64,000 nt of DNA from Candidatus Pseudobutyricicoccus lothianensis (lineage in GTDB: Bacteria; Bacillota; Clostridia; Oscillospirales; Butyricicoccaceae): contig CAJFRA010000006.1 in assembly GCA_904419295.1 (NCBI GenBank), positions 19,438 through 83,437 of the forward strand, read 5' to 3'. This document shows, piece by piece, positions 44,640 to 62,274 of the stretch; the stretch's first letter is position 1; every line of letters starts with the position of its first letter. Below the pieces are notes generated by a model that did not search any database, was not told where the DNA came from, and worked only from the letters and a program-made list of their open reading frames with translations. The position numbers and the translations under genes are program-made.

Positions 44640-45626
44640 ATGGAGAAAAAACTGCGGTTCGTTGTGGCCGGCGGCGACACCCGGCAAGTCCATCTGTGCC
44701 AGCTGCTGGAACAGGACGGCCATCAGGTGCGGGCCTTTGCCTTGGATCGCTACCGGTTCGAAACCGGTATTTTGACCTGCGCTACCATGGAGCAGGCAGC
44801 GTATGAGGCGGACTGCGCCATCTTTCCCATGCCAATGACCCAGGAGGGCAGGTTGAACGCCCCTTTGGCAGCAGAGCCACAAAAGCCGGAACGGCTTTTG
44901 GAAGCACTGCCGGGCGGCTGCATCGCCATGGGCGGTATGGTGCCGGAAAATCTGCGCCAGACCGCGGCGCGCCGGGGGAACACGCTGCACGATTACCTCC
45001 AACGGGAGGAATTGGCCCGGATGAATGCGGCGATCACAGCAGAAGGAGCCATTCAGGTGGCGATGGAGAACACGGAGCAAGCCCTGCTGGGCAGCCGGTG
45101 CCTGGTGGTCGGATACGGGCGCATTGGCAGCCAACTGGCGGCCCGTTTGCGGGCGCTGGGCGCCCGGGTAACGGCCACGGCCCGGCAGTGGAAGGACCTG
45201 GCCCAGATCCGCTGCGATGGCATGGAGGCGCTGCCGACAGGCCAGTTGGAGCGGGTGCTGCCCCACGCAGAGCTGGTCTTTAACACAGCGCCTGCCCTGG
45301 TGTTGCCAAGGGAGCGGCTGGCCCTGCTGCCTGCGAGCGCTGTGGTCATTGACCTTGCCTCCAAACCAGGGGGGGCTGGCTTTCTGCCCAGAGGGCTGGC
45401 GCATGCCTTGCGTTTGCCCTCGTTTTCTGCTAGAGTAAAAGACAGGGAATCTCATCTTGCAATACAAAAAAGAGGGAGCGATTACTATGCTGAAAACAAA
45501 CCGTGCGGATCTGCCTATCTTGCTGGTACAGGGGCAGGTGCGCCATTCCCGCAGCAGCCAGACCTACCGGCACACCATCGACGGAGAGCCCTTTATTTTG
45601 CCTGCTACCGGCGGCATCACCTTTAA
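44640..45626 (+). CDS. dpaA: Dipicolinate synthase subunit A, interrupted 5' part
   Basis: DpaA (SpoVFA) makes spore dipicolinic acid with DpaB in the mother cell. Residues 1-246 are a normal DpaA N-terminal portion: LRFVVAGGDTRQ, PLPMTQ-like FPMPMTQEG, the dinucleotide fold VVGYGRIGSQLAARL (Gly about 158), FNTAPALVL, and IDLASKPGG. At codon 246 (position 45378) homology stops; the frame runs 82 unrelated codons to 45626, entering the next gene out of frame. The missing C-terminus lies 16 kb away at 61568-61705, in phase and just before dpaB. AAAGGAG sits 8 nt before the ATG at 44640. Confidence 0.9.
   Translation: MEKKLRFVVAGGDTRQVHLCQLLEQDGHQVRAFALDRYRFETGILTCATMEQAAYEADCAIFPMPMTQEGRLNAPLAAEPQKPERLLEALPGGCIAMGGMVPENLRQTAARRGNTLHDYLQREELARMNAAITAEGAIQVAMENTEQALLGSRCLVVGYGRIGSQLAARLRALGARVTATARQWKDLAQIRCDGMEALPTGQLERVLPHAELVFNTAPALVLPRERLALLPASAVVIDLASKPGGAGFLPRGLAHALRLPSFSARVKDRESHLAIQKRGSDYYAENKPCGSAYLAGTGAGAPFPQQPDLPAHHRRRALYFACYRRHHL
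45370..45391 (+). repeat. Left junction (attL-like): core plus right P-arm
   Basis: The core GGGGGGCTG (45370-45378) follows dpaA coding sequence; it is followed by GCTTTC (45379-45384) and GCCCAG (45386-45391), which are the exact reverse complements of GAAAGC and CTGGGC left of the core at the other junction. Confidence 0.8.
45408..45436 (+). promoter_or_regulatory. Promoter of DUF4438 gene
   Basis: TTGCGT (45408-45413), 17-bp spacer, TAGAGT (45431-45436), inside the foreign tail of the dpaA frame, 50 nt before the ATG at 45487. Confidence 0.6.
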
Positions 45627-46344
45627 CGCCAAGATCGGCGACCGGTGTGTGGGGTGGGCTGCGGACCATCTGGAACCCGGTGTGACGGCCCGCAATGAAA
45701 ACGACGAATACAACGCCGCCCTTTCCAGCCTGTCTTGCATTGGCAATGTGGCTATTGTGCGCAGCGGCGACGCCAAAGGCGCCAAAGGCTTTGTCACCGG
45801 CAAACACGGCGGATGCGAGCATCTGTTGTGCTACTTTGACGATGAGACCATGGAAAAGATGACCATTGGCGATACCATCGATGTCCGCTCTCAGGGGCAG
45901 GGGATGAAGTTGCTGGATTACCCGGAGATCCTGCTGCGCAATATGAGCCCTGAGCTGCTGGACAAAATGAATATCACCGAGGAAAACGGCAAGCTGAAGG
46001 TAGGCGTGGCCAAGATCGTACCCGCCGCCATCATGGGCTCTGGCTTGGGGGCTTCCACCTCATATTTTGGCGACTACGATATCACGCTGCACGACAAGGC
46101 CATCACCCAGCAATATGGCTTGCAAGATCTGCGCTTCGGCGACATTGTAGCCATTCAAGACGCAGATACCCGGTTTGGCCGCAACTACTTGACCGGCGCG
46201 GTCACCATTGGCGTAGTGGTCCACAGCGATTGCATTTTGGCTGGCCATGGCCCGGGTGTCACCACCCTGATGACCTGCAAGACACCATTGATCGAAGCTG
46301 TGATCGATGAACATGCCAATCTGGCCGATTACTTCGTCAAATAA
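45487..46344 (+). CDS. DUF4438 domain protein
   Basis: 285 residues, cytoplasmic. Recognised by the DUF4438 pattern: LPATGGITFNAKIGDRCVGW, ERNEN-like TARNENDEYNAALSSLSCIGNVA, GKHGGCEHLLCYF, IVPAAIMGSGLGAS, DYDITLHD, DADTRFGRNYLTGAVTIGVVVH and GHGPGVTTLMT. Function unknown; the conserved His, Asp and Cys suggest an enzyme or metal site. GAGGGAGC before the ATG. First gene inside the left end of the dpaA element, with its own promoter and terminator. Confidence 0.88.
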   Translation: MLKTNRADLPILLVQGQVRHSRSSQTYRHTIDGEPFILPATGGITFNAKIGDRCVGWAADHLEPGVTARNENDEYNAALSSLSCIGNVAIVRSGDAKGAKGFVTGKHGGCEHLLCYFDDETMEKMTIGDTIDVRSQGQGMKLLDYPEILLRNMSPELLDKMNITEENGKLKVGVAKIVPAAIMGSGLGASTSYFGDYDITLHDKAITQQYGLQDLRFGDIVAIQDADTRFGRNYLTGAVTIGVVVHSDCILAGHGPGVTTLMTCKTPLIEAVIDEHANLADYFVK

Positions 46345-46359
46345 GAAGAGGCAACAAAA

Positions 46360-46387
46360 AACAGCACGCTGGCAGGCGTGCTGTTTT
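46360..46387. terminator. Bidirectional terminator
   Basis: AACAGCACGC, loop TGGCAG, GCGTGCTGTT then TT; flanked by A-rich sequence on the left, so it also ends the minus-strand gene at 46401. Confidence 0.9.
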
Positions 46388-46400
46388 GCTGTCTTGTGAT

Positions 46401-46844
46401 TTATTTGCCGCAGGTCTTGTTTTGGCGGCGGTGAGCCAACGCCTTCCAAGGCTGCCAAAAAAGCAACAGTGCCAGAGTGGAAGCCGCCAAAGCCCCAGGC
46501 GAATTGCCGCGCCAAATGAACCAATGGGAAAGCGCGAGGCACAAGGGAAACGCCGCCAGCCGCAAAGCCAGGACGATCTTATGTTGGCCCGCTGGCCGGC
46601 AACGAACTGTATTGAAACCGTACCACAGCGTGACCAAAATACCGGACAAAAGGGGGAAGTCACCCAGCAGAGAAAAGAGGATCAGCAAAAAGGGGAACAG
46701 GCCTTTGAGCAGCGTTTTCCCATAGGAGGCAAAAGACGCATTGGAGGGGAGCTGTTCCAGCTCTGCACGAGAAGAACCCAGGAAAAACAAAATAGGGGAG
46801 AGAAGGAGACAGCCGCCCAGCAGGACGATCAATGTGTTGAACAT
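46401..46844 (-). CDS. Small membrane protein of unknown function
   Basis: 147 residues with four predicted helices (NTLIVLLGGCLLLSPILFFLG; LLKGLFPFLLILFSLLG; GILVTLWYGF; AASTLALLLFW) and a basic C-terminus (HRRQNKTCGK). No family recognised. GGGAGGTG lies 8 nt before the ATG at 46844. Inside the dpaA element, convergent with DUF4438. Confidence 0.7.
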   Translation of the reverse strand: MFNTLIVLLGGCLLLSPILFFLGSSRAELEQLPSNASFASYGKTLLKGLFPFLLILFSLLGDFPLLSGILVTLWYGFNTVRCRPAGQHKIVLALRLAAFPLCLALSHWFIWRGNSPGALAASTLALLLFWQPWKALAHRRQNKTCGK

Positions 46845-47218: not shown

Positions 47219-47288
47219 GTGGAAGGTGGAGGCGGCCTGAACATGATGAGCCGGCCGGACGCATAAACATAGGCAGGAGGTGATGGCG

Positions 47289-47390
47289 ATGAAAACGGAC
47301 TACCAAGTGGAGAGCCAAGGCCTGCCCGACCTGCTGGAACTGGAACGGCATTGCGAACTGCTGCTTTGGCTGCTGGGGCTGCAGGCATGA
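47289..47390 (+). CDS. Small ORF translationally coupled to the recombinase
   Basis: 33 codons behind an excellent AGGAGGTG 6 nt upstream; Leu/Glu-rich, likely one amphipathic helix (LPDLLELERHCELLLWLLG). Its stop overlaps the recombinase start (ATGA), so it probably serves translation of the recombinase or makes a partner peptide. Too short to classify. Confidence 0.65.
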   Translation: MKTDYQVESQGLPDLLELERHCELLLWLLGLQA

Positions 47391-48676
47391 GAGTCGGCCT
47401 GTATTTGCGACTGTCTCGGGAAGACGGCGAAGGAGAGTCCCAGAGCATCCAAAGCCAGCGGTTGCTGCTGACAGAATTTTGCCAACAGCAGGGGTTCGCT
47501 GTGGCAGCTGAATATGTAGACGATGGCTACAGCGGCACCACCTTTCAGCGGCCGGCCTTTGCCAAAATGCTGGCGGACATTGAACAGGGGCGGATCGATA
47601 CGGTCATCACCAAAGACCTTTCCCGGCTGGGGCGCGACTATATTTTGACAGGGCACTATCTGGAGCGCTACTTCCCTGCCCATGGGGTGCGGTACATCGC
47701 CTTGGGGGACAACATCGACACAGGGCGGGGGCAAGACGACATGGCGCCCTTCCGGGCCGTTGTCAACGACCTCTATGCCCGGGACATTTCCCGCAAGGTG
47801 CGGGCCTCTCTGCTGGCCAAAAAGCAGGCCGGGCTTTTCATCGGGGCCCGGCCTCCCTATGGCTATCGCCGGCAGGCAGAGGACAAAAACCGGCTGGAGC
47901 CGGACCCGGACACCGCCGGGGTGGTAAAACAGATCTTTTGTTGGGCAGCGGCCGGTTGGGGGGCAACGGCCATCGCCCGGCGGCTGGAAGAGATGGGGGT
48001 CGCCGGCCCGACGCACAACGCGCCCTGGAGCAGCGCCATGGTGCGGCGCATTTTGACCAACCCCACCTACTGTGGCTGCTTGACCCAAAACCGTTCCCGC
48101 AAAGTCAGCTATAAAGTGGAGAAAAGCCGCCCCCTCCCACCGGAAGAGTGGATCACGGTGGAAGGGACCCATCCGGCCATAGTGCCGCCCGCTCTTTTTC
48201 AAGCAGTTCAATCAAGCCGGCGGCAGACGGTGCGGCACCCGTTGGCCGGCAAAGCGTGGTGCGCCTTGTGCGGCGCCGCAATGACGTTTACCACAGACGG
48301 CGCACGCCGGTACCTGGTGTGCAGCGGGCGGCGGAAGGGCACGGGATGCTCTCTGCCTTTGCTGCGGGAAGAAGCTGTGGAGCAGGCGGTGTTGCGCTGT
48401 TTGAAGGGAGAGTTGGCTGCGGCAGCCCAGGCGACAGGAGAAGAGAAATGCAGGAAGCTGCTGGAAAATTGGCCTGCAGGGGCGGAGGAACAGGGAAGGC
48501 TGCTGGCCGCCAGCCTCCGGCGGTTGGAGCTGGGTCCTGCCCAAGGGCGGGTCTTTTGGCTCTGGAGCCCGGAAAAGCGCCCCCAAAGCCCACAAAATAA
48601 TGGGATTTGGGATGAAAATTGTACGGAAATTGACACATCAAACAAAAAAGGAGAAAAAACCAGAAATTCCTGTTGA
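47387..48676 (+). CDS. Serine recombinase (resolvase + recombinase domain + zinc ribbon)
   Basis: 429 residues. Resolvase catalytic domain with nucleophile Ser10 in GLYLRLSREDGEGES, DGYSGTTFQRPAF and KDLSRLGRDY; recombinase DNA-binding domain about 150-270 (FIGARPPYGYRR, AAGWGATAIARRLEEMGVAGP, ILTNPTYCG); zinc ribbon near 290-330 (WCALCGAAM...CSGRRKGTGC). The C-terminal coiled coil is shorter than in most large serine recombinases (usual 450-550 residues). Same class as SpoIVCA, which excises skin. It is the only recombinase in the dpaA element and the natural candidate for its excision. Confidence 0.93.
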   Translation: MRVGLYLRLSREDGEGESQSIQSQRLLLTEFCQQQGFAVAAEYVDDGYSGTTFQRPAFAKMLADIEQGRIDTVITKDLSRLGRDYILTGHYLERYFPAHGVRYIALGDNIDTGRGQDDMAPFRAVVNDLYARDISRKVRASLLAKKQAGLFIGARPPYGYRRQAEDKNRLEPDPDTAGVVKQIFCWAAAGWGATAIARRLEEMGVAGPTHNAPWSSAMVRRILTNPTYCGCLTQNRSRKVSYKVEKSRPLPPEEWITVEGTHPAIVPPALFQAVQSSRRQTVRHPLAGKAWCALCGAAMTFTTDGARRYLVCSGRRKGTGCSLPLLREEAVEQAVLRCLKGELAAAAQATGEEKCRKLLENWPAGAEEQGRLLAASLRRLELGPAQGRVFWLWSPEKRPQSPQNNGIWDENCTEIDTSNKKGEKTRNSC

Positions 48677-48708: not shown

Positions 48709-48875
48709 AGAACCATATGCGGCATGCGGAGGTGCGATGGATGCAGGATGCGGTGGGCAGAGGGGCGCGGACCTCTTCTGTGGAAGGGTGCGGCCTTTTG
48801 GCAGGGCGCACAGCCTCCCGCCGCCGTGCCGGTGTGAAAGAAAAAAGCTGTGGGCCCGCCGCGGCTTTTTTCTTT
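48709..48875 (+). promoter_or_regulatory. pur operon leader with transcription terminator
   Basis: A GC-rich leader of about 200 nt lies between the promoter and purE. It ends in a terminator: a 12-bp stem AAAGAAAAAAGC (48837-48848) with GCTTTTTTCTTT (48864-48875) topped by a GC hairpin. No promoter follows before purE, so expression needs readthrough. CACAGC (48809-48814) can pair with GCTGTG (48847-48852) and open the stem. Other hairpins: AGAGG/CCTCT and TGCGGCC/GGC...CGCA. I do not see the conserved bases of guanine, ZTP or PRPP riboswitches. Confidence 0.6.
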
Positions 48876-48906
48876 GCGGCCCCCGCAACAAGAAAGGATG
48901 GAGAAT

Positions 48907-49407
48907 ATGCAAAAAAATAAAGTAGCCGTGATCATGGGCAGCGACAGCGACCTGCCTGTGGTGGAAAAGGCCATTCAAACATTGAAAGAGTTCGGCGTGC
49001 CCTTTGAGGCCCATGTAATGAGCGCCCACCGGACACCGGCTGCGGCCTGCGACTTTGCCGCCCATGCGGCGGAAAAGGGCTTTGGCGTCATCATCGCCGC
49101 CGCCGGCAAAGCAGCTCACCTGGGCGGTGTGCTGGCGGCCCATACGGTGCTGCCCGTCATCGGCATCCCCATGAAGTCCTCCACACTGGATGGATTGGAC
49201 GCCCTGCTGGCCACAGTCCAGATGCCCTCTGGCGTGCCGGTGGCTACAGTGGCCATCGACGGTGCGGAAAATGCCGCTCTGCTGGCCATTCAGATCTTGG
49301 CGGTGGCCGATGAAAATCTGGCGCAGAAGCTGCTGGACAAGAAAAAGGCCATGGCTGAAAGCGTGGCAAAGAAAGATCAAAAACTGCAGGAGACGCTGAA
49401 CCACTAA
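48907..49407 (+). CDS. purE: N5-carboxyaminoimidazole ribonucleotide mutase
   Basis: 166 residues, class I PurE. Motifs: [51 protein letters not shown]. Converts N5-CAIR to CAIR. No purK is adjacent; class I PurE normally needs PurK, or in some anaerobes acts directly with CO2 (class II). The ATG at 48907 is preferred over 48898 from Shine-Dalgarno spacing (AAAGG 9 nt). First gene of the pur operon. Confidence 0.95.
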
Positions 49408-49486
49408 GTGGCATTGCGGGAAAGAACCGGAACCCACCCGTGGCTGACGGTGTATTTTGAGAACACAGATCGAGGAGGAAAATTCC

Positions 49487-50197
49487 ATGGAAAAGCGTGA
49501 ACAACTCTACGAGGGAAAAGCAAAGAAAGTATACAAGACCGATGACCCGGAACTGCTGATCGTCTCTTATAAAGACGATGCCACCGCTTTCAACGGTGAA
49601 AAAAAGGGAACGATCGTGGGTAAGGGCGTCATCAATAACCGGGTGACGAACCACCTGATGCAGAAGCTGGAGAAAGCCGGTATCCCCACTCATTTTGTCA
49701 AAGAGCTTTCGGATACTGATACCGTGGTGAAGAAAGTCTCCATCGTGCCGCTGGAAGTGATCATCCGCAACATCTCCGCCGGCTCCTTTGCCAAGCGCTA
49801 TGGCGTGGAAGAGGGCATCGTGTTCGACCAGCCCACCATTGAGTTTTCCTATAAAAACGACGATCTGGGCGATCCGCTGATCAACAGCTACCATGCCCTG
49901 GCGCTGAAGCTGGCCACACCGGAGGAGATCGAGACCATCAAAAAGTACGCTTTCCAGGTGAATGACCTGCTGAAGAGCTTTATGAAAGAGATCGGCATCG
50001 ATCTGGTGGACTTCAAGCTGGAATTCGGCCGCTTGACAGACGGCACCATTGTGCTGGCCGATGAGATCTCGCCGGACACCTGCCGCCTGTGGGATGAAAA
50101 GACCCATGAAAAGCTGGACAAAGACCGTTTCCGCCGGGATCTGGGCGGCGTGGAAGACGCCTATCATGAGGTGATGCGCCGGCTGATGGGAGAATAA
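49487..50197 (+). CDS. purC: Phosphoribosylaminoimidazole-succinocarboxamide synthase
   Basis: 236 residues. [38 protein letters not shown]-like [13 protein letters not shown] and [16 protein letters not shown] are the SAICAR synthase signatures. Adds aspartate to CAIR with ATP. GGAGGAAA upstream of the ATG at 49487. Second gene, 79 nt after purE. Confidence 0.97.
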
Positions 50198-50240
50198 TGC
50201 ACCGGCATTGACAGGAATGAGAGAAGAGGAGGACACGGTA

Positions 50241-51671
50241 ATGCAGGACAAGCTCCATGAGGAATGCGGTGTTTTTGGCATTTATGACAATGGCGACGAC
50301 CTGGATGTGGTGACTTCTACTTATTTGGCTCTTTATGCGTTGCAGCATCGGGGGCAGGAAAGCTGCGGCATCGCGGTGAATGACGACGGTGTGATCCGCG
50401 GCTATAAGGATCTGGGGCTTGTGACCGATGTATTCAAGCCCCAGGTATTGGAAAGCTTGGGCACGGGCAAAATGGCTGTGGGCCATTGCCTGTATGGCAC
50501 GGCGGAAAGCAACCGGCGGGAAAATGCCCAGCCCATGACCATACGCCATGTGAAAGGCCAGATGGCCATTGCCAGCAACGGCAGTATCCTCAATGCGCTG
50601 GAACTGCGGGAGAAGCTGGAGCTGCAGGGAGCCATTTTCCACTCCACCAGTGCAGCCGAGCTGCTGGCCCACATGATCACCCGGGAACGGCTGACGGCCC
50701 ATTCCATCGAAGAGGCCATCTGCCAGGCCATGGACAAGCTGTACGGCGTCTATTCGATGATCGTGATGTCGCCAAAGAAGCTGATCGGCGTGCGAGACCC
50801 GCTGGGGCTGCGGCCGCTGAGCATTGGGCAGTGCGGCAACAGCTATGTGCTGGCCTCGGAGACCACTGCGCTGGACAGCATGGGGGCCCACTTCGTGCGG
50901 GATGTACGGCCGGGAGAGATCGTGATCATCGATGAAAACGGTCTGCGCAGCATTGACAAGCACTGCGGAAAGAAAAGCCACCTTTGCGTGTTCGAATTCG
51001 TCTATTTTGCCCGCCCCGATTCGGTGATCGAAGGCACGAGCGTGCACATGGCCCGGCAAAAAATGGGCGCGTTTCTGGCCCAGGAACACCCGGTGGAAGC
51101 CGACTTGGTGATGGGCGTGCCCGACAGCGGCAATGACGCTGCCTTGGGCTATGCCAATGAATCGGGTATCCCCTATGGCATCGGTTTGATCAAGAATAAG
51201 TACATTGGCCGCACGTTTATTTTAAACACCCAGCGGCAGCGGGAAAACGCCGTGCGCATCAAGCTCAACGCCATTGCCGAGGTGGTGCGGGGCAAACGCA
51301 TTGTGCTGGTGGACGATTCCATCGTTCGGGGCACGACCAGCGCCCGCATCGTGCGGCTGCTGCGGGAAGCCGGTGTGAAAGAGGTGCATATGCGCATTTC
51401 TTCGCCGCCGTTCCGCTACCCCTGCTACTTTGGCACAGACATCGACTCGCCGGAACGGTTGATCGCCAACAAGATGACCGTCGAGGAGATCGGCCAAAAG
51501 ATCGGCGTAGACTCCCTGGGGTTTTTGAGCTTGGAAAACATCGTCAAAGTGGCTGAAAAATCCGACTGTGCGTTTTGCACCGGCTGCTTCAGCGGCGAAT
51601 ACCCGCTGTGTGTAGACGATGCAGGGCGTGTCTCCAAGTTCGATTTGAAATTCAGCGAACAGATAGATTGA
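50241..51671 (+). CDS. purF: Amidophosphoribosyltransferase
   Basis: 476 residues. Committed step: PRPP plus glutamine to phosphoribosylamine. A short propeptide MQDKLHEE precedes Cys9 (ECGVFGIYD), the Ntn glutaminase nucleophile exposed by self-cleavage; PRTase loop [15 protein letters not shown]-terminal cysteines (CAFCTGC with upstream CYFGTD) are the 4Fe-4S ligands of the Bacillus-type enzyme. AGGAGG upstream. Confidence 0.97.
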
Positions 51672-51682
51672 GAGGGCGATTT

Positions 51683-52714
51683 ATGAAGAGTTTTAGCGAC
51701 AGTTACAAGGCGGCGGGCGTAGATGTGACCGCCGGTTACAAAGCGGTGGAACTGATGAAGCAGCACACGGCCCGCACGATGATCCCCGGCGTGCTCTCCG
51801 GATTGGGCGGCTTTGGTGGCCTGTTTGAAATGGATCTTTCCGGCATGGAGCACCCGGTGCTGGTTTCGGGCACCGACGGCGTGGGCACCAAGCTGAAGCT
51901 GGCTTTTCTGCTGGATAAGCACGACACCGTGGGCATCGACTGCGTAGCCATGTGCGTCAACGACGTGGTGTGCGCCGGCGCCAAGCCTTTGTTCTTTTTG
52001 GATTATATCGCCTGCGGCAAAAATCAGCCGGAAAAGATCGCCTCCATCGTCTCTGGCGTGGCGGAAGGCTGCGTACAGGCTGGCTGCGCGCTGATCGGCG
52101 GCGAGACTGCGGAGATGCCCGGCTTTTATGCGGCAGATGAATACGACTTGGCCGGCTTTACAGTGGGCGCGGTAGACAAAGCCCGGATCTTGGACCAAAG
52201 CCGTGTGCAGCCAGGCGATGTGCTGGTGGCGCTGCCCTCTTCCGGTGTGCACAGCAACGGCTTTTCCCTGGTGCGCAAAGTGTTCGACGTGGAAAACAAG
52301 AAAAATTTCTACAGCGAAGAGCTGGGCACCACTTTGTGGGAAAGCCTGCTGACCCCGACGCGCATCTATGTCAAGCAGGTGCTGGCCCTGATGGAACAGG
52401 TCAAAGTCAAATCTGTCTGCCATATCACAGGGGGCGGCTTTTATGAGAACATCCCCCGCGCCCTGCCCGATGGGTTGAGCGCCAAGATTGAAAAGAAAGC
52501 CGTGCGTACACCGCCCATCTTCCGGCTGATCCAAGCGGAGGGCAACGTGCCGGAAAAAGATATGTTTAACACCTATAACATGGGCGTTGGCATGTGCTGC
52601 ATCGTGGCCAAAGAAGAGGCGGACCGGGCGCTGGAAGCGCTGAAAGCCCAAGGAGAAGACGCTTATGTGCTGGGCGAAGTGGTAGAAAGCGACGAGGGCG
52701 TGATCCTGTGGTAA
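51683..52714 (+). CDS. purM: Phosphoribosylformylglycinamidine cyclo-ligase (AIR synthetase)
   Basis: 343 residues. [59 protein letters not shown] and [13 protein letters not shown] are family motifs. Closes the imidazole ring of AIR. AGAGGGCG upstream of ATG; overlaps purN by 7 nt. Confidence 0.97.
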
Positions 52715-53328
52715 AGATCGGGGTGCTGGTGTCGGGCGGCGGCACCAACTTGCAGGCTTTGCTGGATGCGCAAGACCAAGGCCGGCTGCACAGCGGCCAG
52801 ATCGCCTTGGTGGTCTCCAGCCAGGCTGGGGCGTATGCGCTGGAACGGGCCAAACAGCATGGGGTGGAAAGCGCCACCCTGGCCCGCAAGGCCTTTGCCA
52901 GCCAAGCGGAATACGACAGCGCCATGGTGGAGCTGCTCCGCTGCCACGACATCGATGTGGTGGTGTTGGCCGGCTTTCTCAGTGTGCTGGGCCCTGCAAT
53001 GGTGCAGGCTTTTCCGAACCGCATTCTAAACGTACATCCTTCGCTGATCCCCAGTTTTTGCGGCAAGGGATATTACGGGCTGAAGGTCCACGAAGCGGCG
53101 CTGGCCCGTGGGGTCAAGGTGACGGGAGCCACGGTGCATCTGGTCAACGAGATCACAGACGGCGGCCCCATCCTGCTGCAAAAGGCGGTAGAGGTGCTGC
53201 CCGGCGACACGGCGGAGACGCTGCAGCACCGGGTGATGGAACAGGCTGAGTGGGTGCTGCTGCCCCAAGCCACTGAAATGGTGTGTGCTGCCGTGACACA
53301 ACAGAAAAAGGAGAACGCTGGATCATGA
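52708..53328 (+). CDS. purN: Phosphoribosylglycinamide formyltransferase
   Basis: 206 residues. [55 protein letters not shown] and [16 protein letters not shown] carry the catalytic Asn-His-Asp set. Transfers formyl from 10-formyl-THF to GAR. GTG start inside the purM end, with GAGGGCG upstream: tight coupling. Confidence 0.97.
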
Positions 53329-54047: not shown

Positions 54048-55226
54048 ATGACAGAATTTGAGCTGAAATATGGCTGCAACCCCAACCAAAAGCCGGCCAA
54101 AATTTTTATGAAAGATGGTTCTCAGCTGCCGGTGCAAGTGCTCAATGGCAAGCCTGGATACATCAACTTTTTAGACGCTTTCAACTCCTGGCAGCTGGTG
54201 CGGGAGCTGAAAGAAGCCACTGGATTGCCGTCGGCCGCCTCTTTCAAGCACGTTTCACCGGCGGGCGCCGCTGTGGGGCATCCGCTGACCGATGTGGAAC
54301 GGCAGATGTATTTTGTGAGCGAAAAGGGCCCGTTGAGCCCCATTGCCTGTGCCTATATCCGGGCGCGGGGGGCCGACCGCCTGTGCTCCTATGGAGACTG
54401 GGCGGCGTTGAGCGATGTGTGCGATGCGGATACTGCCCGCTATATCAAGCCGGAAGTGTCCGACGGCATCATCGCCCCGGGCTACACCGATGAGGCGCTG
54501 GCCATTTTGAAAGAGAAGAAAAAGGGGCGTTACAACGTCATTCAAGTAGACGCCTCCTATGTGCCCAGCGCCCAAGAGTGTAAGGACGTGTTTGGCGTCA
54601 CGTTTGAACAGGGGCACAATTTCTGCAAGATCGATGAAAGCTTGCTGCAAAACATCGTCACAGAAAACAAAGAGCTGCCGCAGCAAGCCAAAGTGGATAT
54701 GATCGTGGCGCTGATCACGCTCAAATACACCCAGTCCAACTCGGTATGCTATGTGAAAAACGGCCAGGCCATCGGCGTAGGCGCCGGCCAGCAGAGCCGC
54801 ATCCACTGTACCCGCTTGGCAGGGCAGAAGGCGGATAACTGGTATCTGCGCCAGCACCCGAAAGTGCTGGGCCTGCAGTTTTTGCCCGGCGTCCGCCGGC
54901 CGGACCGGGACAATGCCATCGACGTTTACACCTCAGAGGAGTATGAGGACGTGCTGGCAGAGGGCGTATGGCAGACTATTTTTCAAGTCAAGCCCCCCGT
55001 TTTGACTGCCCAGGAGAAAAAAGAGTGGATCGCCACCCAATCCGGCGTGACAGTAGGATCTGACGCCTTCTTCCCCTTTGGCGACAATGTGGAGCGGGCC
55101 CGCAAGAGTGGCGTGCAATACATTGCAGAGCCTGGCGGCTCCATTCGGGATGACAACGTCATCGACACTGCCAACAAATATGGCATCGTCATGGCCTTTA
55201 CCGGCCTGCGGCTATTCCATCATTGA
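54048..55226 (+). CDS. purH: AICAR formyltransferase (stand-alone, PurH C-terminal type)
   Basis: 392 residues. Corresponds to the AICAR transformylase domain: ELKYGCNPNQKPAKI, ASFKHVSPAGAAVG (catalytic Lys-His), SNSVCYVKNGQAIGVGAGQQSRIHCTRLA, SDAFFPFGDNVERA and GGSIRDDNVIDTANKYGIVM. The MGS-like IMP cyclohydrolase half of PurH is missing and is supplied by the preceding gene. AAAGGAG before the ATG. Confidence 0.95.
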   Translation: MTEFELKYGCNPNQKPAKIFMKDGSQLPVQVLNGKPGYINFLDAFNSWQLVRELKEATGLPSAASFKHVSPAGAAVGHPLTDVERQMYFVSEKGPLSPIACAYIRARGADRLCSYGDWAALSDVCDADTARYIKPEVSDGIIAPGYTDEALAILKEKKKGRYNVIQVDASYVPSAQECKDVFGVTFEQGHNFCKIDESLLQNIVTENKELPQQAKVDMIVALITLKYTQSNSVCYVKNGQAIGVGAGQQSRIHCTRLAGQKADNWYLRQHPKVLGLQFLPGVRRPDRDNAIDVYTSEEYEDVLAEGVWQTIFQVKPPVLTAQEKKEWIATQSGVTVGSDAFFPFGDNVERARKSGVQYIAEPGGSIRDDNVIDTANKYGIVMAFTGLRLFHH

Positions 55227-55307: not shown

Positions 55308-56591
55308 ATGAAAATTGCTGTCATCGGCGGCGGCGGCCGTGAACATGCCGTGATCAAAAAGTTGAAAGAAAACAAACGAGTGACCAAAGTCTATGCTTTG
55401 CCGGGCAACGGAGGAATTGCCCAAGACGCCGTCTGTGTGGCCATCAAAGCCACCGATGTGGAGGGCGTTGTGGAATTCGCCAAGCGGGAGCAGATCGACT
55501 TGGTGGTGGTGACGCCCGACGATCCGCTGGCCCTCGGCATGGTGGACCGGCTGCAACAGGCGGGCATCCGCGCTTTTGGCCCGACGGCAAAGGCGGCGGA
55601 GATCGAGAGCAGCAAGGTGTTCGCCAAAGAGCTGATGAAAAAATACCACATCCCGACAGCGGATTATGAGGTGTTCGACAATTTGGAGAACGCCATGGCC
55701 TATATCCGCTCCCGGGCAAAATACCCGGTGGTCATCAAGGCCGACGGCCTGGCCTTGGGAAAAGGCGTTATCATCGCCGAAAACGAAGTGGCGGCCAAAG
55801 AGGCCTTGCAGGCCATTATGAACGACAAGATCTTTGGCAACAGCGGCGATAAAGTGATCGTGGAAGAATTTTTGCAAGGCCCGGAGATTTCGGTTTTGAC
55901 ATTTACCGATGGCAAAACTGTGGCACCGATGGTGACATCCATGGATCATAAGCGGGCTTATGATGGAGACGAAGGCCCCAACACCGGCGGTATGGGCACT
56001 GTGGCCCCCAACCCCTTCTATACGCCGGCAGTGGCAAAGCGGTGCATGGAGGAGATCTTCCTGCCCACGATCCAGGCGATGAATCAAGAAGGCCGTGTTT
56101 TTCAGGGGTGCTTGTATTTTGGCCTGATGTTGACAGAAGAGGGGCCAAAGGTCATTGAGTACAACTGCCGCTTTGGCGACCCGGAGACCCAAGTGGTATT
56201 GCCTTTGCTGAAAAGTGACTTGCTGGATGTGTTTGAGGCGGTGATCGAAGGCCGGCTGGACCAGCAAAAAGTTGCGTTTGCCAAGCAGGCGGCCTGCTGC
56301 GTGATCTTGGCTTCGGGCGGTTACCCCAAAAACTACTACACAGGCCTACCCATCACCGGCATCGAAGAGGCTCAAGCCATGCCGGGGGTTTCGATATACC
56401 ACGCAGGCACCAAAGTGGAAGATGGAAACCTGCTGACGGCCGGCGGCCGTGTGCTGGGTGTGACCGCTGTGGCGAAAGACCTGCCCCAGGCCATTCAGCG
56501 GGCCTATGATGCGGCGGGCAAGATTCATTTTGACAACATGCATTTCCGCAGGGACATCGGCAAGCGGGCTTTGGAACAGAGGGGGAATTGA
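55308..56591 (+). CDS. purD: Phosphoribosylamine-glycine ligase
   Basis: 427 residues, ATP-grasp. AVIGGGGREHAVIKKL, GNGGIAQDAV, VVIKADGLALGKGVIIAE, EEFLQGPEISVLTFTDG and KRAYDGDEGPNTGGMGTVAP are diagnostic. Makes GAR. GAGGG is about 8 nt upstream of the ATG. purL begins 1 nt after its stop. Confidence 0.97.
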   Translation: MKIAVIGGGGREHAVIKKLKENKRVTKVYALPGNGGIAQDAVCVAIKATDVEGVVEFAKREQIDLVVVTPDDPLALGMVDRLQQAGIRAFGPTAKAAEIESSKVFAKELMKKYHIPTADYEVFDNLENAMAYIRSRAKYPVVIKADGLALGKGVIIAENEVAAKEALQAIMNDKIFGNSGDKVIVEEFLQGPEISVLTFTDGKTVAPMVTSMDHKRAYDGDEGPNTGGMGTVAPNPFYTPAVAKRCMEEIFLPTIQAMNQEGRVFQGCLYFGLMLTEEGPKVIEYNCRFGDPETQVVLPLLKSDLLDVFEAVIEGRLDQQKVAFAKQAACCVILASGGYPKNYYTGLPITGIEEAQAMPGVSIYHAGTKVEDGNLLTAGGRVLGVTAVAKDLPQAIQRAYDAAGKIHFDNMHFRRDIGKRALEQRGN

Positions 56592-56592
56592 G

Positions 56593-59500
56593 ATGGCGGT
56601 TTTTCGAATCTTTGTAGAGAAGAAACCCGGCTTTGACGTGGAGGCGCGGCAGCTGTTGGCCGATATCAACGGTTTGCTGCAAATTGGCAGTGTGGAAAAA
56701 GTGCGGCTGTTGAACCGCTACGACGTAGAGGGCATTGACCGGGCCTTGTTCGACCAGTGCGTGCCCACCGTGTTTTCCGAGCCCCAGGTAGACCGGGCCA
56801 CGGAGGAGATGGACGTGCCGGGAGCACTGGTCTTTGCCAGCGAATATCTGCCCGGCCAATACGACCAGCGGGCGGATTCCTGCGCCCAGTGCATCCAGTT
56901 CGTCTCCCAGGGGGAGCGGCCTACTGTGCGCACAGCCCGGATCTATGCCCTATATGGCAACATCCGCCCAGAAGAACTGGCGGCCATCAAAAAATACGTC
57001 ATCAACCCGGTGGAGAGCCGGGAAGCCTCCCTGGAGAGCTACGACACTCTGCAGGTACAGTATGACATCCCCACCCAGGTGGAAACGCTGGAAGGTTTTA
57101 CGCAGCTGGATGAAGAGGGGTTGGCCCAGTTTATCCGCACCTACGGCTTGGCGATGGATCAAGACGACATCCGCTTCTGCCGGGACTATTTCCGCCAGGA
57201 GGGGCGGCAGCCTACCATCACAGAGATCCGCATGATCGATACCTATTGGTCGGACCATTGCCGCCACACCACCTTTTCAACGATCATCGACCAGGTGGAG
57301 ATCGGCGACGAAGCGGCCCAAAAGAGCTTTGCCATGTATCAGAATTTGCGGGGCGAGGTCTACGCAGGCCGCCAGGAAAAGCCCATGACCTTGATGGATC
57401 TGGCGACCATTGGCGCAAAATATCTGAAAAAGACCGGCGCTCTCACCGACTTGGATGAGTCGGAAGAGATCAATGCCTGCTCGGTAAAGATCGATGTGGA
57501 AGTGGAAGGGGAGATCCAGCAATGGATCTTGATGTTTAAAAACGAGACCCACAACCATCCTACAGAGATCGAGCCCTTTGGCGGTGCCGCCACCTGCATT
57601 GGCGGTGCCATCCGCGACCCGCTGTCGGGCCGCAGCTATGTTTACCAGGCCATGCGCGTCACCGGCGCGGCAGATCCCCGGAAGCCCATTGACGAGACGC
57701 TGCCCGGCAAACTGCCTCAGCGGAAGATCGTACAGACTGCGGCGGCCGGTTACAGCTCCTATGGCAACCAGATCGGCCTAGCCACCGGCTTGGTCCACGA
57801 GATCTATCACCCGGGCTATGTGGCCAAGCGTATGGAGATCGGCGCTGTGGTAGGCGCGGCGCCGGCAGAGAATATCCGCCGTGAACGCCCCCAGCCCGGC
57901 GACGCCATCATTTTGCTGGGCGGCCGCACCGGGCGGGACGGCTGCGGTGGGGCCACCGGCTCTTCGAAGGCCCATACCCAGCAGTCGCTGGAGACTTGCG
58001 GCGCGGAAGTGCAAAAAGGCAACGCGCCGGAAGAGCGGAAGATCCAACGGCTGTTCCGCGACAAAGCAGTGACCCGGCTCATCAAGCGGTGCAATGACTT
58101 TGGAGCCGGCGGCGTATCGGTAGCCATCGGTGAGCTGGCCGACGGCCTGGACATTGACCTAAACCGGGTGACGAAGAAATACGAAGGCCTGGACGGCACC
58201 GAGCTGGCCATTTCTGAATCCCAGGAGCGTATGGCCGTCGTGGTGGCAGCCAAAGATGTGGAAGAGTTTTTGCAGCGGGCTGCCGATGAAAACCTGGAAG
58301 CGACAGTGGTGGCCCAAGTGACAGAAGAGCCCCGGCTGGTGATGCGCTGGAACGGCAACACCATCGTCGACCTTTCCCGTGCCTTCCTCAACTCCAACGG
58401 CGCAGAAAAACACATCGGGGTAAAGATCGAGGCCCCGTCCCTGGAGGAAGAAGAGCATCTGGCGGCCACTGGGGCCAACTACAAAGAGGTGCTGGGCCGG
58501 CTGAATGTGTGTTCGGAAAAAGGCCTGATCCAGCGGTTTGACAGCACCATCGGCGCAGGCACTGTGCTGATGCCCTTGGGTGGCAAGAACCAGATCACCC
58601 CGGCCCAAGCCATGGCGGCCAAGATCCCCGTGCTGGGCCGTGAGACCAAGACCTGCTCGGTGATGGCGTATGGCTTCGATCCGTTTTTGAGCCAGCAGAG
58701 CCCTTATCGGGGCGCTTACCAGGCAGTGGTGGAATCGGTCTGCAAGCTGACGGCTACAGGCGCTTCCCACAAAAACTGCCATCTGACCTTCCAGGAATAC
58801 TTTGAGCGGCTGGGTACAGCGCCAGAGCGTTGGGGCAAACCCATGGCAGCTTTGTTGGGCGCGCTGGAGGCGCAGAAGCAACTGAAGGCCGGTGCCATTG
58901 GCGGCAAAGACAGCATGTCCGGCAGTTTTGACGACATCGATGTGCCGCCCACTCTGGTCAGCTTTGCCATTGCAGCAGCCAATACCGACAACCTGATCTC
59001 GCCGGAATTCAAGCAAGCCGGCAGCCGGGTGGTATTGGTGCAGGCTCAGGCAGAAGGGGCTCTGTTCCAGGAAGAGAGCTTGCTGCATACATTGGATACA
59101 GTGGAGCAGCTGATCGCCCAGAAGAAGGTGCGCAGCGCTTATGTGCCCGGCGCAGGCGGCATCGGCGCCGCTATCGCTGTGATGTGCTTTGGCAATGGCT
59201 TGGGTTTTGCCTACGACCGGGCGGAAAACTTGTTTGATACGGTGCGGGGCGCTTTCTTGCTGGAACTGACGGAAGACGCTCCTCTGGTAGGCGAGTTGGT
59301 CGGCCACACGATGGAAGAACCGGCCATTGCATTCCCTGGCGGCGAAACACTGCCTTTGGCAGAGCTTCAGGCGGCATACGAAGCCACGCTGGAACCCATC
59401 TTCCCCTGCAAGACCGAGAGCCAGGGTCAAGTGCCTGTGTATTCCTACCAAACTACCCAGCGGGTAGCTCCGGCCGTCCGGGTGGCGAAGCCCCATGTTT

Positions 59501-60288
59501 TGATCCCGGTGTTCCCAGGCACCAACTGCGAATTTGATACGGCCCGGGCCTTCCAGAAAGCGGGAGCGGAACCGGAGATCTTGGTGCTCAAGAACTTGAC
59601 GCCGGCCCAGCTCACCGAATCGGTGGAGCGAATGGAGCAGGCCATTGGCCGCAGCCAGATCCTGGCTTTGCCGGGCGGCTTTTCCGGCGGCGACGAGCCC
59701 GATGGGTCGGCCAAATTCATCACGGCTTTCTTCCGCAACCCCCGTATCACCCAGGCGGTACATGCCCTGCTGCAACAGCGGGATGGCCTGATGCTGGGCG
59801 TCTGCAACGGCTTCCAAGCGCTGATCAAGCTGGGGCTGCTGCCCTATGGGGAAATTCGCGACTTGGGCGAAGAAGATGCCACGTTGACATATAACGTCAT
59901 CGGCCGGCATCAGTCCGGACTGGTGCACACCCGCGTGTGTTCCAACAAATCCCCCTGGCTGATGCTGCACGAAGTGGGCCAGGTGCATACCATTGCCATT
60001 TCCCACGGGGAGGGCCGGTTTGTGGCACCCCAGAGCCTGATCGACCAACTGGCGGCCAACGGTCAGATCGCCACTCAATATGTGGATCTGGCAGGCGATC
60101 CCACGATGGATGTGGCCTTCAACCCCAATGGGGCCTACCAGGCCATTGAAGGCATCACATCGCCGGATGGCCGTGTGTTCGGCAAAATGGGCCACACAGA
60201 ACGCCATGGCGATAACTTGTATAAGAATGTGCCGGGCGACAGAGACCAGCGGATCTTTGAAGGCGCTGTGCAATATTACGCTTTGTAA
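56593..60288 (+). CDS. purL: Phosphoribosylformylglycinamidine synthase (single-chain)
   Basis: 1231 residues, the long form holding PurS-like N-domain, PurL synthase body and class I glutaminase. Motifs: IDTYWSDHCRHTTF near 220, NETHNHPTEIEPFGGAATCIGG near 320, GGRTGRDGCGGATGSS near 440, and a C-terminal amidotransferase (LIPVFPGTNCEFDTARAF, ALPGGFSGGDE, MLGVCNGFQALIKLG with nucleophile Cys). Converts FGAR to FGAM. Preferred ATG is 56593, immediately after purD. Last gene of the pur operon. Confidence 0.97.
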   Translation: MAVFRIFVEKKPGFDVEARQLLADINGLLQIGSVEKVRLLNRYDVEGIDRALFDQCVPTVFSEPQVDRATEEMDVPGALVFASEYLPGQYDQRADSCAQCIQFVSQGERPTVRTARIYALYGNIRPEELAAIKKYVINPVESREASLESYDTLQVQYDIPTQVETLEGFTQLDEEGLAQFIRTYGLAMDQDDIRFCRDYFRQEGRQPTITEIRMIDTYWSDHCRHTTFSTIIDQVEIGDEAAQKSFAMYQNLRGEVYAGRQEKPMTLMDLATIGAKYLKKTGALTDLDESEEINACSVKIDVEVEGEIQQWILMFKNETHNHPTEIEPFGGAATCIGGAIRDPLSGRSYVYQAMRVTGAADPRKPIDETLPGKLPQRKIVQTAAAGYSSYGNQIGLATGLVHEIYHPGYVAKRMEIGAVVGAAPAENIRRERPQPGDAIILLGGRTGRDGCGGATGSSKAHTQQSLETCGAEVQKGNAPEERKIQRLFRDKAVTRLIKRCNDFGAGGVSVAIGELADGLDIDLNRVTKKYEGLDGTELAISESQERMAVVVAAKDVEEFLQRAADENLEATVVAQVTEEPRLVMRWNGNTIVDLSRAFLNSNGAEKHIGVKIEAPSLEEEEHLAATGANYKEVLGRLNVCSEKGLIQRFDSTIGAGTVLMPLGGKNQITPAQAMAAKIPVLGRETKTCSVMAYGFDPFLSQQSPYRGAYQAVVESVCKLTATGASHKNCHLTFQEYFERLGTAPERWGKPMAALLGALEAQKQLKAGAIGGKDSMSGSFDDIDVPPTLVSFAIAAANTDNLISPEFKQAGSRVVLVQAQAEGALFQEESLLHTLDTVEQLIAQKKVRSAYVPGAGGIGAAIAVMCFGNGLGFAYDRAENLFDTVRGAFLLELTEDAPLVGELVGHTMEEPAIAFPGGETLPLAELQAAYEATLEPIFPCKTESQGQVPVYSYQTTQRVAPAVRVAKPHVLIPVFPGTNCEFDTARAFQKAGAEPEILVLKNLTPAQLTESVERMEQAIGRSQILALPGGFSGGDEPDGSAKFITAFFRNPRITQAVHALLQQRDGLMLGVCNGFQALIKLGLLPYGEIRDLGEEDATLTYNVIGRHQSGLVHTRVCSNKSPWLMLHEVGQVHTIAISHGEGRFVAPQSLIDQLAANGQIATQYVDLAGDPTMDVAFNPNGAYQAIEGITSPDGRVFGKMGHTERHGDNLYKNVPGDRDQRIFEGAVQYYAL

Positions 60289-60305: not shown

Positions 60306-60338
60306 AAAGGCAACCTTCCCATGGGAAGGTTGCCTTTT
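60306..60338 (+). terminator. Terminator of the pur operon
   Basis: GGCAACCTTCCC-AT-GGGAAGGTTGCC: 12-bp perfect stem, then TTTT; A-rich on the left, so also usable by the convergent AbrB gene. Confidence 0.95.
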
Positions 60339-60363
60339 GTTGCCTTAAAGCGGTGATGAGAGA

Positions 60364-61401
60364 CTATAAAATCTGTGAGATCCAATTGGTCAATGTGGGG
60401 AAGAGGGCCACCACTACGATCATGCGGAGCGTCTGCATGGCAGCGACTTTGGCCGGGTCTGCCCCCAATTCGGCCGCGATGATCGACATGTCGCTGACAC
60501 CGCCTGGCGCAGAGGCAAAGAGGGAGGTAGTCAAGCCCAGATGGCCGAATTTTGCAACGGTAAAGCCCAAAATCAAATTGATGGCGGCCAGTGCCAACAC
60601 CAGGATCAGAGCGGGCAAAGCCACCAAACGCAGCCCCTGCACTTCTGCCATGCCCATGCCGGAACCGATGATGGCACCGCTGAGAGTCTGGGTGACATTG
60701 CGGAAATCGGCGGGTACTTGTACACGATGGCCGGCAAAGGTCAACACCATAGCCCCTGCCATCGCGCCGATCATGGCGCCGGAAGGGATGCCTAAATAGT
60801 GAAAGGATAGGCCGCCGATCAGCCCGGCCACTGCCAGCATGGCATAGTGCTTCCACGTGTAAGTGGGTTTTGCAGCGGCCCCTTGGGATGCAGGCAAAAT
60901 TTCGGGCTTATTGTCGTAGCGGGCCGCCCGCTTGAGCAAGGCGGGCATGAATGCGATGACAAAGATCACACGGACTGTTTGTAAGATAGCCACTTGCCCT
61001 GCATCGGCGCCCAAGTCGTCAGCCACCAAGGTCATTTCTTGGATGCCGCCCGGGGCGGAAGCAAGCAGTGCCGTTTTCACATCCAGATCGCTGACAGCAC
61101 TAATGCCCAGGCCTACACAAGAATTTAGGAAGATCAATCCGAAAACCATCATCAATGTGGCGGGCAGTATAGTGCGCAGATTGAGTACATCCTGCATGCT
61201 CATGCGGGTACCGATGTAAATGCCAGCCATGATGCGGATGTAGGGCCGTACAGGGTTAGGTACGTTGGCGTAATCAAAAAAGATGTTCATCAGCAGTACG
61301 GCGATCATGGCGCCGATAATGGTGCCGGCCGGCAGTTTCAATTTGCGGCCAATAAAACCGCCTATCGCTGCCACGAGTATCGTTACAAGAAAAGAAAGCA
61401 T
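60364..61401 (-). CDS. AbrB-family (PF05145) membrane transporter
   Basis: 345 residues, about ten membrane helices arranged as two repeats, each with the family hallmark ALLASAPGGIQEMTLVADDLGAD and SLFASAPGGVSDMSIIAAELGAD followed by VAxLQTxR. LPAGTIIGAM and IPSGAMIGAM open each half. The family is annotated as 'AbrB/ammonia monooxygenase-like', with unknown substrate, possibly an amino acid or anion. ATG 61401 (GGTGGG upstream) is preferred over GTG 61413. Last gene of the dpaA element, near its right junction. Confidence 0.88.
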   Translation of the reverse strand: MLSFLVTILVAAIGGFIGRKLKLPAGTIIGAMIAVLLMNIFFDYANVPNPVRPYIRIMAGIYIGTRMSMQDVLNLRTILPATLMMVFGLIFLNSCVGLGISAVSDLDVKTALLASAPGGIQEMTLVADDLGADAGQVAILQTVRVIFVIAFMPALLKRAARYDNKPEILPASQGAAAKPTYTWKHYAMLAVAGLIGGLSFHYLGIPSGAMIGAMAGAMVLTFAGHRVQVPADFRNVTQTLSGAIIGSGMGMAEVQGLRLVALPALILVLALAAINLILGFTVAKFGHLGLTTSLFASAPGGVSDMSIIAAELGADPAKVAAMQTLRMIVVVALFPTLTNWISQIL

Positions 61402-61540
61402 AGCAGATCCCACCCGTTCCCATAGATTTTACCTTCTTATTACAGTATAGCATATGAGGGAGCAAAAGAGTGAAAACCAGGCCGTTTTTCGGCAAGATGA
61501 CGGTAATTTGGGCAAAAATACCCAAAAACCACCTTGTTTG

Positions 61541-61568
61541 CTGGGCGATTGAAAGCTACGGGGGGCTG
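61541..61568 (+). repeat. Right junction (attR-like): left P-arm plus core
   Basis: CTGGGC (61541-61546), GAAAGC (61551-61556), then the core GGGGGGCTG (61560-61568), followed by dpaA coding sequence. The two arm hexamers are exact inverted matches of those at 45379-45391. Confidence 0.8.
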
Positions 61569-61705
61569 ATTTCATTGCAGCCCAGGAATTGGGGATAGCA
61601 ATCCACCACGCCCTGTCACTGCCGGGCAAAGTAGCGCCCCTCAGCGCTGCCATGGCCATACGCGATACCGCCTATAATATTTTGCAGGAGGAGGGGATAC
61701 TGTGA
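61566..61705 (+). pseudogene. dpaA: dpaA 3' part (last 45 codons), separated from its 5' part
   Basis: Open frame from the core: A-D-F-I-A-A-Q-E-L-G-I..., HHALSLPGKVAPLSA and MAIRDTAYNILQEEGIL, ending TGA at 61703-61705. This is the conserved DpaA C-terminus (ALSLPGKVAP...). It has no start of its own, contains no frameshift or stop, and overlaps dpaB by GTGA exactly as in an intact operon. An in-frame TGA lies upstream of the core at 61547-61549, on the element side. Preserved coding in a fragment argues for restoration by excision rather than decay. Confidence 0.88.
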
Positions 61706-62274
61706 CGGAACAGAACATCGGATTTGGCGTCACCGGTTCTTTTTGTACATTTTCGCAGATCTTGCCTGTGATGGAGCGTTTGGCAAAATGCAATCAAGTA
61801 TTTCCTGTGCTTTCCGATATGGCATATGGCACGGATACTCGATTTTATAAAGCAGAAGATTTTCGGTCAGAAGTGCGGCGCCTGTGCGGCAACGAGATCA
61901 TCCATACCATCGTGGATGCCGAACCGATTGGCCCGCGCAAAATGTTTGATGCTATGGTGATCGCCCCGTGTACGGGCAATACACTGGCAAAGTTGGCGTG
62001 CGGTATTACCGATACACCGGTGTTGATGGCGGCAAAAGCCCATATTCGCAATGACAGGCCCTTGATCATTGCGGTTTCCACCAACGATGCGCTGGGAGCG
62101 GCAGCGCAAAACATCGGTGCACTGCTCAACCGGCGCAATGTGTATTTTGTTCCTTTCAGCCAAGACAATTATGAGAAAAAGCCTCGCTCTATGGTGGCGC
62201 GGATGGGTCTCATTGAACAGACCATTGAATTGGCTTTGAAAGGCCAACAGATCCAGCCGTTGATCTTGCTGTAA
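61702..62274 (+). CDS. dpaB: Dipicolinate synthase subunit B
   Basis: 190 residues, flavoprotein fold (SpoVFB). IGFGVTGSFCTFSQILP, AEPIGPRKMFDAMVIAPCTGNTLAKLACGITDTPVLMAAKA and RPLIIAVSTNDALGAAAQNIGALLNRRNVYFVPFSQD are diagnostic. With DpaA it makes dipicolinic acid in the mother cell for spore heat resistance. GTG start overlapping the dpaA stop, with GAGGAGGGG just upstream. In the unexcised state it is cut off from the dpaA promoter, and I see no strong promoter directly upstream. Confidence 0.95.
   Translation: MTEQNIGFGVTGSFCTFSQILPVMERLAKCNQVFPVLSDMAYGTDTRFYKAEDFRSEVRRLCGNEIIHTIVDAEPIGPRKMFDAMVIAPCTGNTLAKLACGITDTPVLMAAKAHIRNDRPLIIAVSTNDALGAAAQNIGALLNRRNVYFVPFSQDNYEKKPRSMVARMGLIEQTIELALKGQQIQPLILL

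Follow-up and report, generated by a model that had tools for sequence, protein, structure and literature searches.

The sporulation intervening elements described to date in two published accounts interrupt sigK, spsM, spoVFB, gerE and yabG (PMC10747680, PMC5595907). The present analysis concerns a putative element of this kind in dpaA (spoVFA), found in a stretch of 64,000 nucleotides (hereafter the window, to which all positions refer) from Candidatus Pseudobutyricicoccus lothianensis, of the clostridial family Butyricicoccaceae (assembly GCA_904419295.1, contig CAJFRA010000006.1, positions 19,438 to 83,437). Here dpaA is split by a 16,190-bp element with a serine recombinase and a purine operon, and the recombinase is predicted to excise the element from the mother cell during sporulation, which would allow a complete DpaA to be made, a reading to which we assign a probability of roughly 0.78.

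The described systems resemble this locus in different respects. In vfbin of Bacillus weihenstephanensis, the interrupted gene is spoVFB, which encodes the other subunit of this enzyme (dipicolinate synthase beta subunit), and the recombinase is reported to be expressed in sporulation (PMC10747680, PMC5595907); the present elements differ in lying in spoVFA/dpaA, in another bacterial class, at two sites with two recombinase clades and with metabolic cargo. The gin element in gerE of Bacillus cereus ATCC10987 is likewise described as having serine recombinases, 9-bp end repeats and no phage genes, and its small accessory protein GirX, of 42 amino acids (aa), is small like the putative product of a candidate open reading frame (ORF) of the window (PMC5595907); it interrupts another gene, whereas the window's element has core-metabolism cargo and a recombinase without most of the coiled coil. 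In Clostridioides difficile, skinCd, located in sigK, similarly has a large serine recombinase, CD1231 (PMC5025042); its small directionality factor, CD1234 (53 aa; PMC10747680), and the restriction of its excision to the mother cell (PMC5025042) correspond to what is proposed for the window's element. The gene interrupted there is a sigma-factor gene and here a biosynthetic one, and control by a directionality factor, reported there (PMC5025042), is here a proposal. The yin element in yabG of a Clostridium strain is again a recombinase-bearing element in a clostridial spore gene, which its authors describe as prophage-like and unique to one strain (PMC10747680), whereas elements in dpaA are found in several families. 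In Bacillus subtilis, SP-beta lies in spsM and is excised in sporulation to rebuild that host gene, as is predicted here; it is, however, an active prophage (PMC4191935), while just one of five scanned proteins of the window's element, the recombinase, matched PHROGs. No intervening element of dpaA/spoVFA was found in searches of an open-licence library, where PMC12946183 proved unrelated; dpaA as a target, a pair of sites each with its own recombinase clade, genes in three pieces, broad occurrence and housekeeping cargo are new.

The split dpaA gene and its recurrence

The in-frame split that the original prediction had placed in dpaA was borne out together with its coordinates. The 5' piece (44640-45377, forward strand, 246 codons) carries the DpaA_N and NAD-binding domains (PF16924, 2e-23; own-genome search) and the 3' piece (61568-61705, forward strand, 45 codons and the stop), recognised by own-genome search and invariant columns, holds the conserved ALSLPGKVAP region, with 16,190 bp between them. 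The sequence GGGGGGCTG occurs on the forward strand at both junctions, 45370-45378 (attL core) and 61560-61568 (attR core), with the codon phase unchanged (GGG GGG GCT|GAT); both cores were assigned from the sequence and by half-site comparison, and the crossover would fall inside these 9 bp. Joining the pieces gives a DpaA of 291 aa with no internal stop, and the dpaA stop overlaps at 61702 the start of dpaB (dipicolinate synthase subunit B; 61702-62274, forward strand, PF02441). In G001, G012 and G019, a protein 59-70% identical to this DpaB likewise follows the 3' piece of dpaA (G000 denotes the window's own genome, G001 a same-genus relative and the other G numbers surveyed relatives). The element therefore lies inside a sporulation gene, as judged by the DpaA_N match and the adjoining dpaB, is bounded by a short direct repeat across which the frame is restored exactly, and bears its own site-specific recombinase; the serine recombinase named earlier was confirmed by matches to PF00239, PF07508 and PF13408.

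A second intact dpaA was sought in the genome (81 contigs, 98.75% complete) and not found; the search returned the two pieces and one weak match (32% identity along 102 residues), probably to a dehydrogenase of a related type. The conservation claimed for the joined protein also holds, as all 38 columns invariant among 16 intact DpaA are retained. Four of these (L264, P265, G266 and P270, numbered by the first alignment row) fall in the 45-codon 3' piece, and the 5' piece alone should therefore not be a working enzyme; solved DpaA structures are represented by 3d4o and 2rir. DpaA-like residues past the left junction (match to residue 267) were considered as a decayed dpaA copy or a rearrangement; the element half-site explains them, and the independent splits told against decay or rearrangement as the main account.

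The intact genes of relatives, to which the original prediction had pointed for comparison, were used as an alignment (A1) of the 16 intact DpaA searched against 87 genomes of the family, with counts read from the result table. A dpaA match was obtained in 77 of the 87, some of them just weak partial matches that are likely related dehydrogenases. One full-length piece is present in 33 genomes, the gene is split near codon 131 (site 1) in 15 (G019, G040, G041, G043, G047, G050, G051, G052, G053, G060, G061, G062, G066, G082 and G083) and near codon 246 (site 2, that of the window) in three (G000, G001 and G012), and the others gave nothing, a partial match or, in G024, an ambiguous result. In G012, G047, G060, G062 and G066, the halves are on separate contigs, so that the element is not seen whole there, and the 5' piece of G050 is itself spread over two contigs.

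The split gene extends beyond the family. At the level of the order, dpaA matches were obtained in 344 of 396 sampled genomes, and of 12 hand-picked genomes searched singly, eight were split and four unsplit. Splits at this level were found at site 1 in G134, G222, G231 and G228 (two contigs), at site 2 in G204 and G342, and at both sites, leaving dpaA in three pieces, in G368 (C1:16265-36666; L062, L063) and G419 (C1:906316-927220; L064, L065), a count that is a lower bound, as it was drawn from the matches listed among the 396 genomes. A class-level sample of 195 genomes added six more, at site 1 in G467 (two contigs), G512 and G578, at site 2 in G491 and G563, and at a third place, near codon 187, in G493 (two contigs, C11:586-1158 and C40:5452-5763; L081, L082). 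Across the three surveys, at least 32 genomes have dpaA in pieces. Since the same split recurs in the same-genus relative and the same site is used in other families, with matching half-sites, the split is, on the sequence comparisons, beyond chance. In a separate observation, among the matches listed, genomes of family f23 (G108, G141, G154, G167, G178, G271 and G311) have a near-full-length dpaA with one in-frame stop each (TGA, TAA or TAG), for which slippage, recoding, two ORFs or decay are options.

The halves appear to be maintained as one gene. All 14 joined site-1 genes, each with a 160-codon 3' half, are free of internal stops, and 13 of them keep 38 of the 38 invariant columns, the remaining one keeping 37. 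At site 2, G000, G012 and G204 keep 38, and G001 and G342 keep 34. The three-piece joins are also open, giving 291 aa with 37/38 columns in G368, where the join was made by protein motif, and 287 aa with 36/38 in G419; a TGA in the middle piece of G419 was ruled out as a defect, the stop being located just past the site-2 junction. Ratios of nonsynonymous to synonymous substitution (dN/dS) for the 18 closest of 105 pairs, two of which include the intact G006, were 0.08-0.21 in the 5' half and 0.07-0.33 in the 3' half. Thus, the site-1 halves are open and, as judged from these ratios, under purifying selection.

Recombinases, attachment sites and control regions

The window's recombinase (47387-48676, forward strand) has the resolvase, recombinase and zinc ribbon domains of large serine recombinases (PF00239, PF07508, PF13408), matches phrog_95 (integrase) and was further characterised by alignment and tree. 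Its ORF is listed from TTG 47351; ATG 47387, giving 429 aa, is the more likely start, a small correction to the listed one. Each of the 14 family site-1 loci that were fetched contains a recombinase. Compared with the G019 enzyme, the other 13 show 54-72% identity over their best stretch, and the recombinase starts 158-225 bp from the 3' piece in 11 of the 14; the exceptions are G043 (about 430 bp), G083 (about 550 bp, inverted) and G066, where it stands beside the 5' piece.

A maximum-likelihood tree was constructed from 30 recombinases, comprising 18 grouped site-1 rows, six grouped site-2 rows and six ungrouped rows (two of L040, L041, two of G222 and the second of G043); the truncated G062 sequence and ORFs shorter than 250 aa (the G012 fragment and extra recombinase-like ORFs, two of G043 and one of G134) were left out, and L040, L041, G342 and G043_13825 carry a long-branch warning. 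The clade follows the insertion site in 24 of 24 grouped rows, with a support of 100/99 for the branch dividing clade A (site-1 side) from clade B (site-2 side). The G222 ungrouped rows, which belong to a site-1 element, fall on the site-1 side, as does L041. Both three-piece genomes, G368 and G419, have one recombinase of each clade, each in the element at the fitting site. Among six class-level genomes fetched after the tree was made, all four loci with a recombinase fit the same rule (G512 and G578 at site 1 with clade A, G491 and G563 at site 2 with clade B; 374-568 against 114-129 bits), and no clade A or B recombinase was found in the parts of the G467 and G493 loci fetched. A scan of genome contigs with the recombinase gave two distant loci, neither with a dpaA match. 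As a side observation, L071 of G222 is a single site-1 element with two site-1-side recombinases in opposite orientation.

Most of the coiled-coil segment is absent, in the alignment judged by eye, from the recombinases of G000, G001, G342 and six clade-A rows, and is retained in other rows of both clades, in clade B in recombinases of the G419 or G204 type. In one report, deletion of the coiled coil from the model integrase LI permits attL x attR recombination without a helper (2.2%), and phiC31 integrase without it is inactive (PMC10754689). Loss of the segment in several branches would fit excision-only enzymes, and, since the coiled coil helps to make serine integrases one-way, the window's recombinase may excise with little or no directionality factor.

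The 14 family loci at site 1 are all interrupted directly after the NAV codons, and joining their halves gives NAV-P-T-[CA]-E-G-A. Sites of serine integrases have inverted-repeat arms (PMC10754689), which an integrated element bears as separate halves. When the element ends were joined, an ungapped dyad was apparent in G043 (16 of 16 bases) and G001 (15/16) and, with longer arms, in G204, G231 and G134 (17-18/20). In the ungapped test of 16 sites, p<=0.01 was reached by five attP (G001, G043, G060, G066 and G083), one attL (G062) and no attB or attR. A gapped test against shuffles, with nominal p-values uncorrected for multiple tests, gave p<=0.05 in 14 of 23 sites (G012, G222 and G419 not among them), including the window's CTGGGCGATTGAAAGC / CTGGGCAGAAAGC (p~0.016, significant by this test only) and those of G001 and G204 (p~0.002); nine of the 23 were above 0.05, among them the negative G368_s1 row, which was anchored one base off. 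On average, the pairs of an element's own halves outscore swapped pairs, at site 1 by 12.6 to 10.9 (one row mis-anchored) and at site 2 by 13.6 to 10.2.

The sequence GCATANNNT, which resembles the -10 consensus of the sigma-K/E type used by mother-cell sigma factors, occurs upstream of 14 of 21 clade-A recombinases, against 0.95 expected by shuffle and four on the other strand. The full promoter pattern was sigma-K-like in six of 28 (0.66 expected by shuffle) and sigma-E-like in none. A small ORF reaches into or near the recombinase start in 15 of 21 cases in clade A and, under a loose test, in five of six in clade B, that of G001 being doubtful. In the window, it encodes 35 aa (47283-47390, forward strand), overlaps the recombinase start and is a candidate directionality factor. 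Small-ORF peptides gave nothing above cut-off, five being compared with Pfam and two with NCBIfam; a SHOCT-like motif suspected in them found no support.

The purine operon and other cargo

The insert carries nine purine genes, a point absent from the original prediction. A DUF4438 protein (45457-46344, forward strand; PF14505/PF20999) is the first cargo gene, 86% identical to its counterpart at the same place in G001. The recombinase is followed, all on the forward strand, by purE (48850-49407), purC (49457-50197), purF (50208-51671), purM (51575-52714 as listed) and purN (52594-53328 as listed), the true starts of the last two probably lying downstream, by genes for an IMP cyclohydrolase-like protein (purO; 53283-54035, PF07826) and an AICAR transformylase-like protein (purH; 54048-55226, PF01808), and by purD (55308-56591) and purL, a full-length FGAM synthase (56506-60288 as listed, TIGR01857). 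An AbrB-family protein (60364-61413, reverse strand; PF05145), 80% identical in G001, completes the element. The purF is the sole close copy found in the genome, its next-closest relative there being only 34% identical, and, of the five element proteins scanned, PHROGs matched the recombinase alone (integrase/invertase/transposase); therefore, the insert seems to contain the purine operon of the cell itself. When the window's element was examined as a prophage or conjugative element, that scan of five proteins revealed no phage structural or transfer genes, the remaining named genes being metabolic.

The gene order in G001 is that of the window, namely 5' piece, DUF4438, recombinase, purine genes, AbrB, 3' piece and dpaB, with identities of 63% for the recombinase, 62-91% for the purine genes and 70% for DpaB, and with a core repeat of 13 bp. 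Elsewhere, the dpaA elements span about 2.5 to 45 kb and differ in content. The site-2 element of G204 (L067, about 5.1 kb between the dpaA pieces) has thiH and a thiE/tenI-like gene, probably a thiamine set, and the site-1 element of G368 has uvrC, mutS2 and mtaB. The smallest, in G051 (about 2.5 kb), holds little besides a Spo0A-like regulator, a small ORF and the recombinase. Spo0A-like response regulators lie inside seven site-1 elements of one genus (G040, G041, G047, G051, G052, G053 and G062); L044:1631-2500 (reverse strand) is one of them, and the regulator of the G051 element matches PF08769 at 1.9e-19. Each of these seven genomes has a far stronger Spo0A match elsewhere, and the element-borne regulators may again point to a link with sporulation. 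The window's genome has four genes with a Spo0A_C domain (C26, C38, C7 and C20).

Predicted excision, rival explanations and significance

A skin-like interpretation, as originally proposed, fits the observations best, given the exact in-frame join, the recombinase in the insert, the correspondence of clade and site across families, the dyad at the circle junction and the halves kept open. Structure, site and recombinase match this kind of element; excision timed to the mother cell is a prediction from sequence. The recombinase would cut the element out of the mother-cell chromosome and so join dpaA, with the 35-aa ORF coupled to it as a candidate helper, and excision would be required for dipicolinate synthesis. 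Dipicolinate is made late in sporulation in the mother cell (PMC5629000), and since that cell does not survive, dpaA is a fitting target; for the same reason, the loss of the purine genes would cost nothing.

Several results weigh against this interpretation. In G001, DpaA is only 39% identical to that of the window in the 5' piece, against 70% for DpaB, and retains 34 of the 38 invariant columns, which suggests a weaker constraint there. The mother-cell-type GCATANNNT precedes just two of six clade-B recombinases and is absent before those of the window and G001. The ungapped dyad is not significant at the window's own site (9/20, p~0.93; 8/16, p 0.78), and the clade-A side is not confined to dpaA, as the locus of L041 has no dpaA match. 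SpoVAC and SpoIVA genes are present in both G000 and G001, and their presence does not discriminate, since, of the 10 among 87 family genomes in which dpaA gave no match, all keep SpoVAC and six keep SpoIVA. Finally, no rejoined copy of the window's DpaA was found among the best 120 of 2696 protein-database matches, where the best entry is the truncated DpaA itself (P0001, 30 members) and the nearest organism-named DpaA, 54% identical, is from a metagenome-assembled genome of Oscillospiraceae (P0011). Eight of the other 119 proteins listed match partly; in P0002, P0003, P0004, P0005, P0010, P0021 and P0039 the match ends within residues 248-263, at site 2 or slightly beyond it, and P0050 differs in kind from these. 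That only the split form is sequenced fits excision limited to dying mother cells and equally offers no direct sign of excision.

Excision outside spore development, as a reversible switch or a leak in growing cells that leaves a minority with a working dpaA, is an unlikely alternative. It would accord with the want of a sporulation-type -10 before the window's recombinase, with the report of one integrase without coiled coil that acts on both site pairs (PMC10754689) and with the excision of yin at all time points in its published account (PMC10747680). Growing cells that lost the circle would, however, forfeit their only close purF and the operon, and a sigma-K/E-like -10 precedes 14 of 21 clade-A recombinases. 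It is more improbable that dpaA is dead, broken by a mobile element, with dipicolinate not made or made another way. The dpaA-less family genomes that keep SpoVAC and SpoIVA suggest that some relatives may manage without dpaA, and the G001 copy has diverged, yet this explanation is disfavoured by the open joined frames, the invariant columns kept in full in G000 and dN/dS far below 1 in both halves, as well as by retention of the recombinase over a large divergence.

Production of the two pieces as separate, cooperating polypeptides, with no excision of DNA, appears very improbable: both pieces are open, and for some 3' pieces (such as that of G019) the surrounding ORF has a start codon farther upstream, but the window's 45-codon 3' piece starts in the attachment core, where no start codon of its own was seen, and the tails after the 5' piece vary among elements beyond the half-site. 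Hardly credible is an old rearrangement or an assembly error that placed the purine segment inside dpaA with the recombinase as a bystander. The cargo of ordinary host operons, with no phage genes, is what it would lead one to expect; against it stand the many split genomes, some in few contigs (G040 in 2, G419 in 6, G231 and G342 in 7 each), the recombinase clade that tracks the site and the dyad at the circle junction.

Under the skin-like interpretation, domestication describes the element best: it would be one of a widespread set that docks in dpaA, inserted long ago, held in frame and later entered by host genes. A wider proposition, which we consider somewhat better than an even chance, is that dpaA serves Clostridia as a permanent docking gene with two slots, in which two recombinase clades each own one codon site and both slots can be filled together to give three exon-like pieces. 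The inserts would house core operons (purine, thiamine, DNA repair) that the mother cell discards in each cycle, and the recombinases, having repeatedly shed the coiled coil, would be excision-only.

Dipicolinate is a main cause of spore heat resistance. If the skin-like interpretation is true, 18 of the 87 family genomes would obtain DpaA-made dipicolinate only after editing of the mother-cell genome by a recombinase, and genome annotation would miscall the split species as lacking a whole dpaA. The many aligned elements would also form a natural set for the study of how mobile DNA can turn into a developmental switch and of what sets serine-integrase direction, and may bear on why host operons enter DNA that is discarded in a dying cell.

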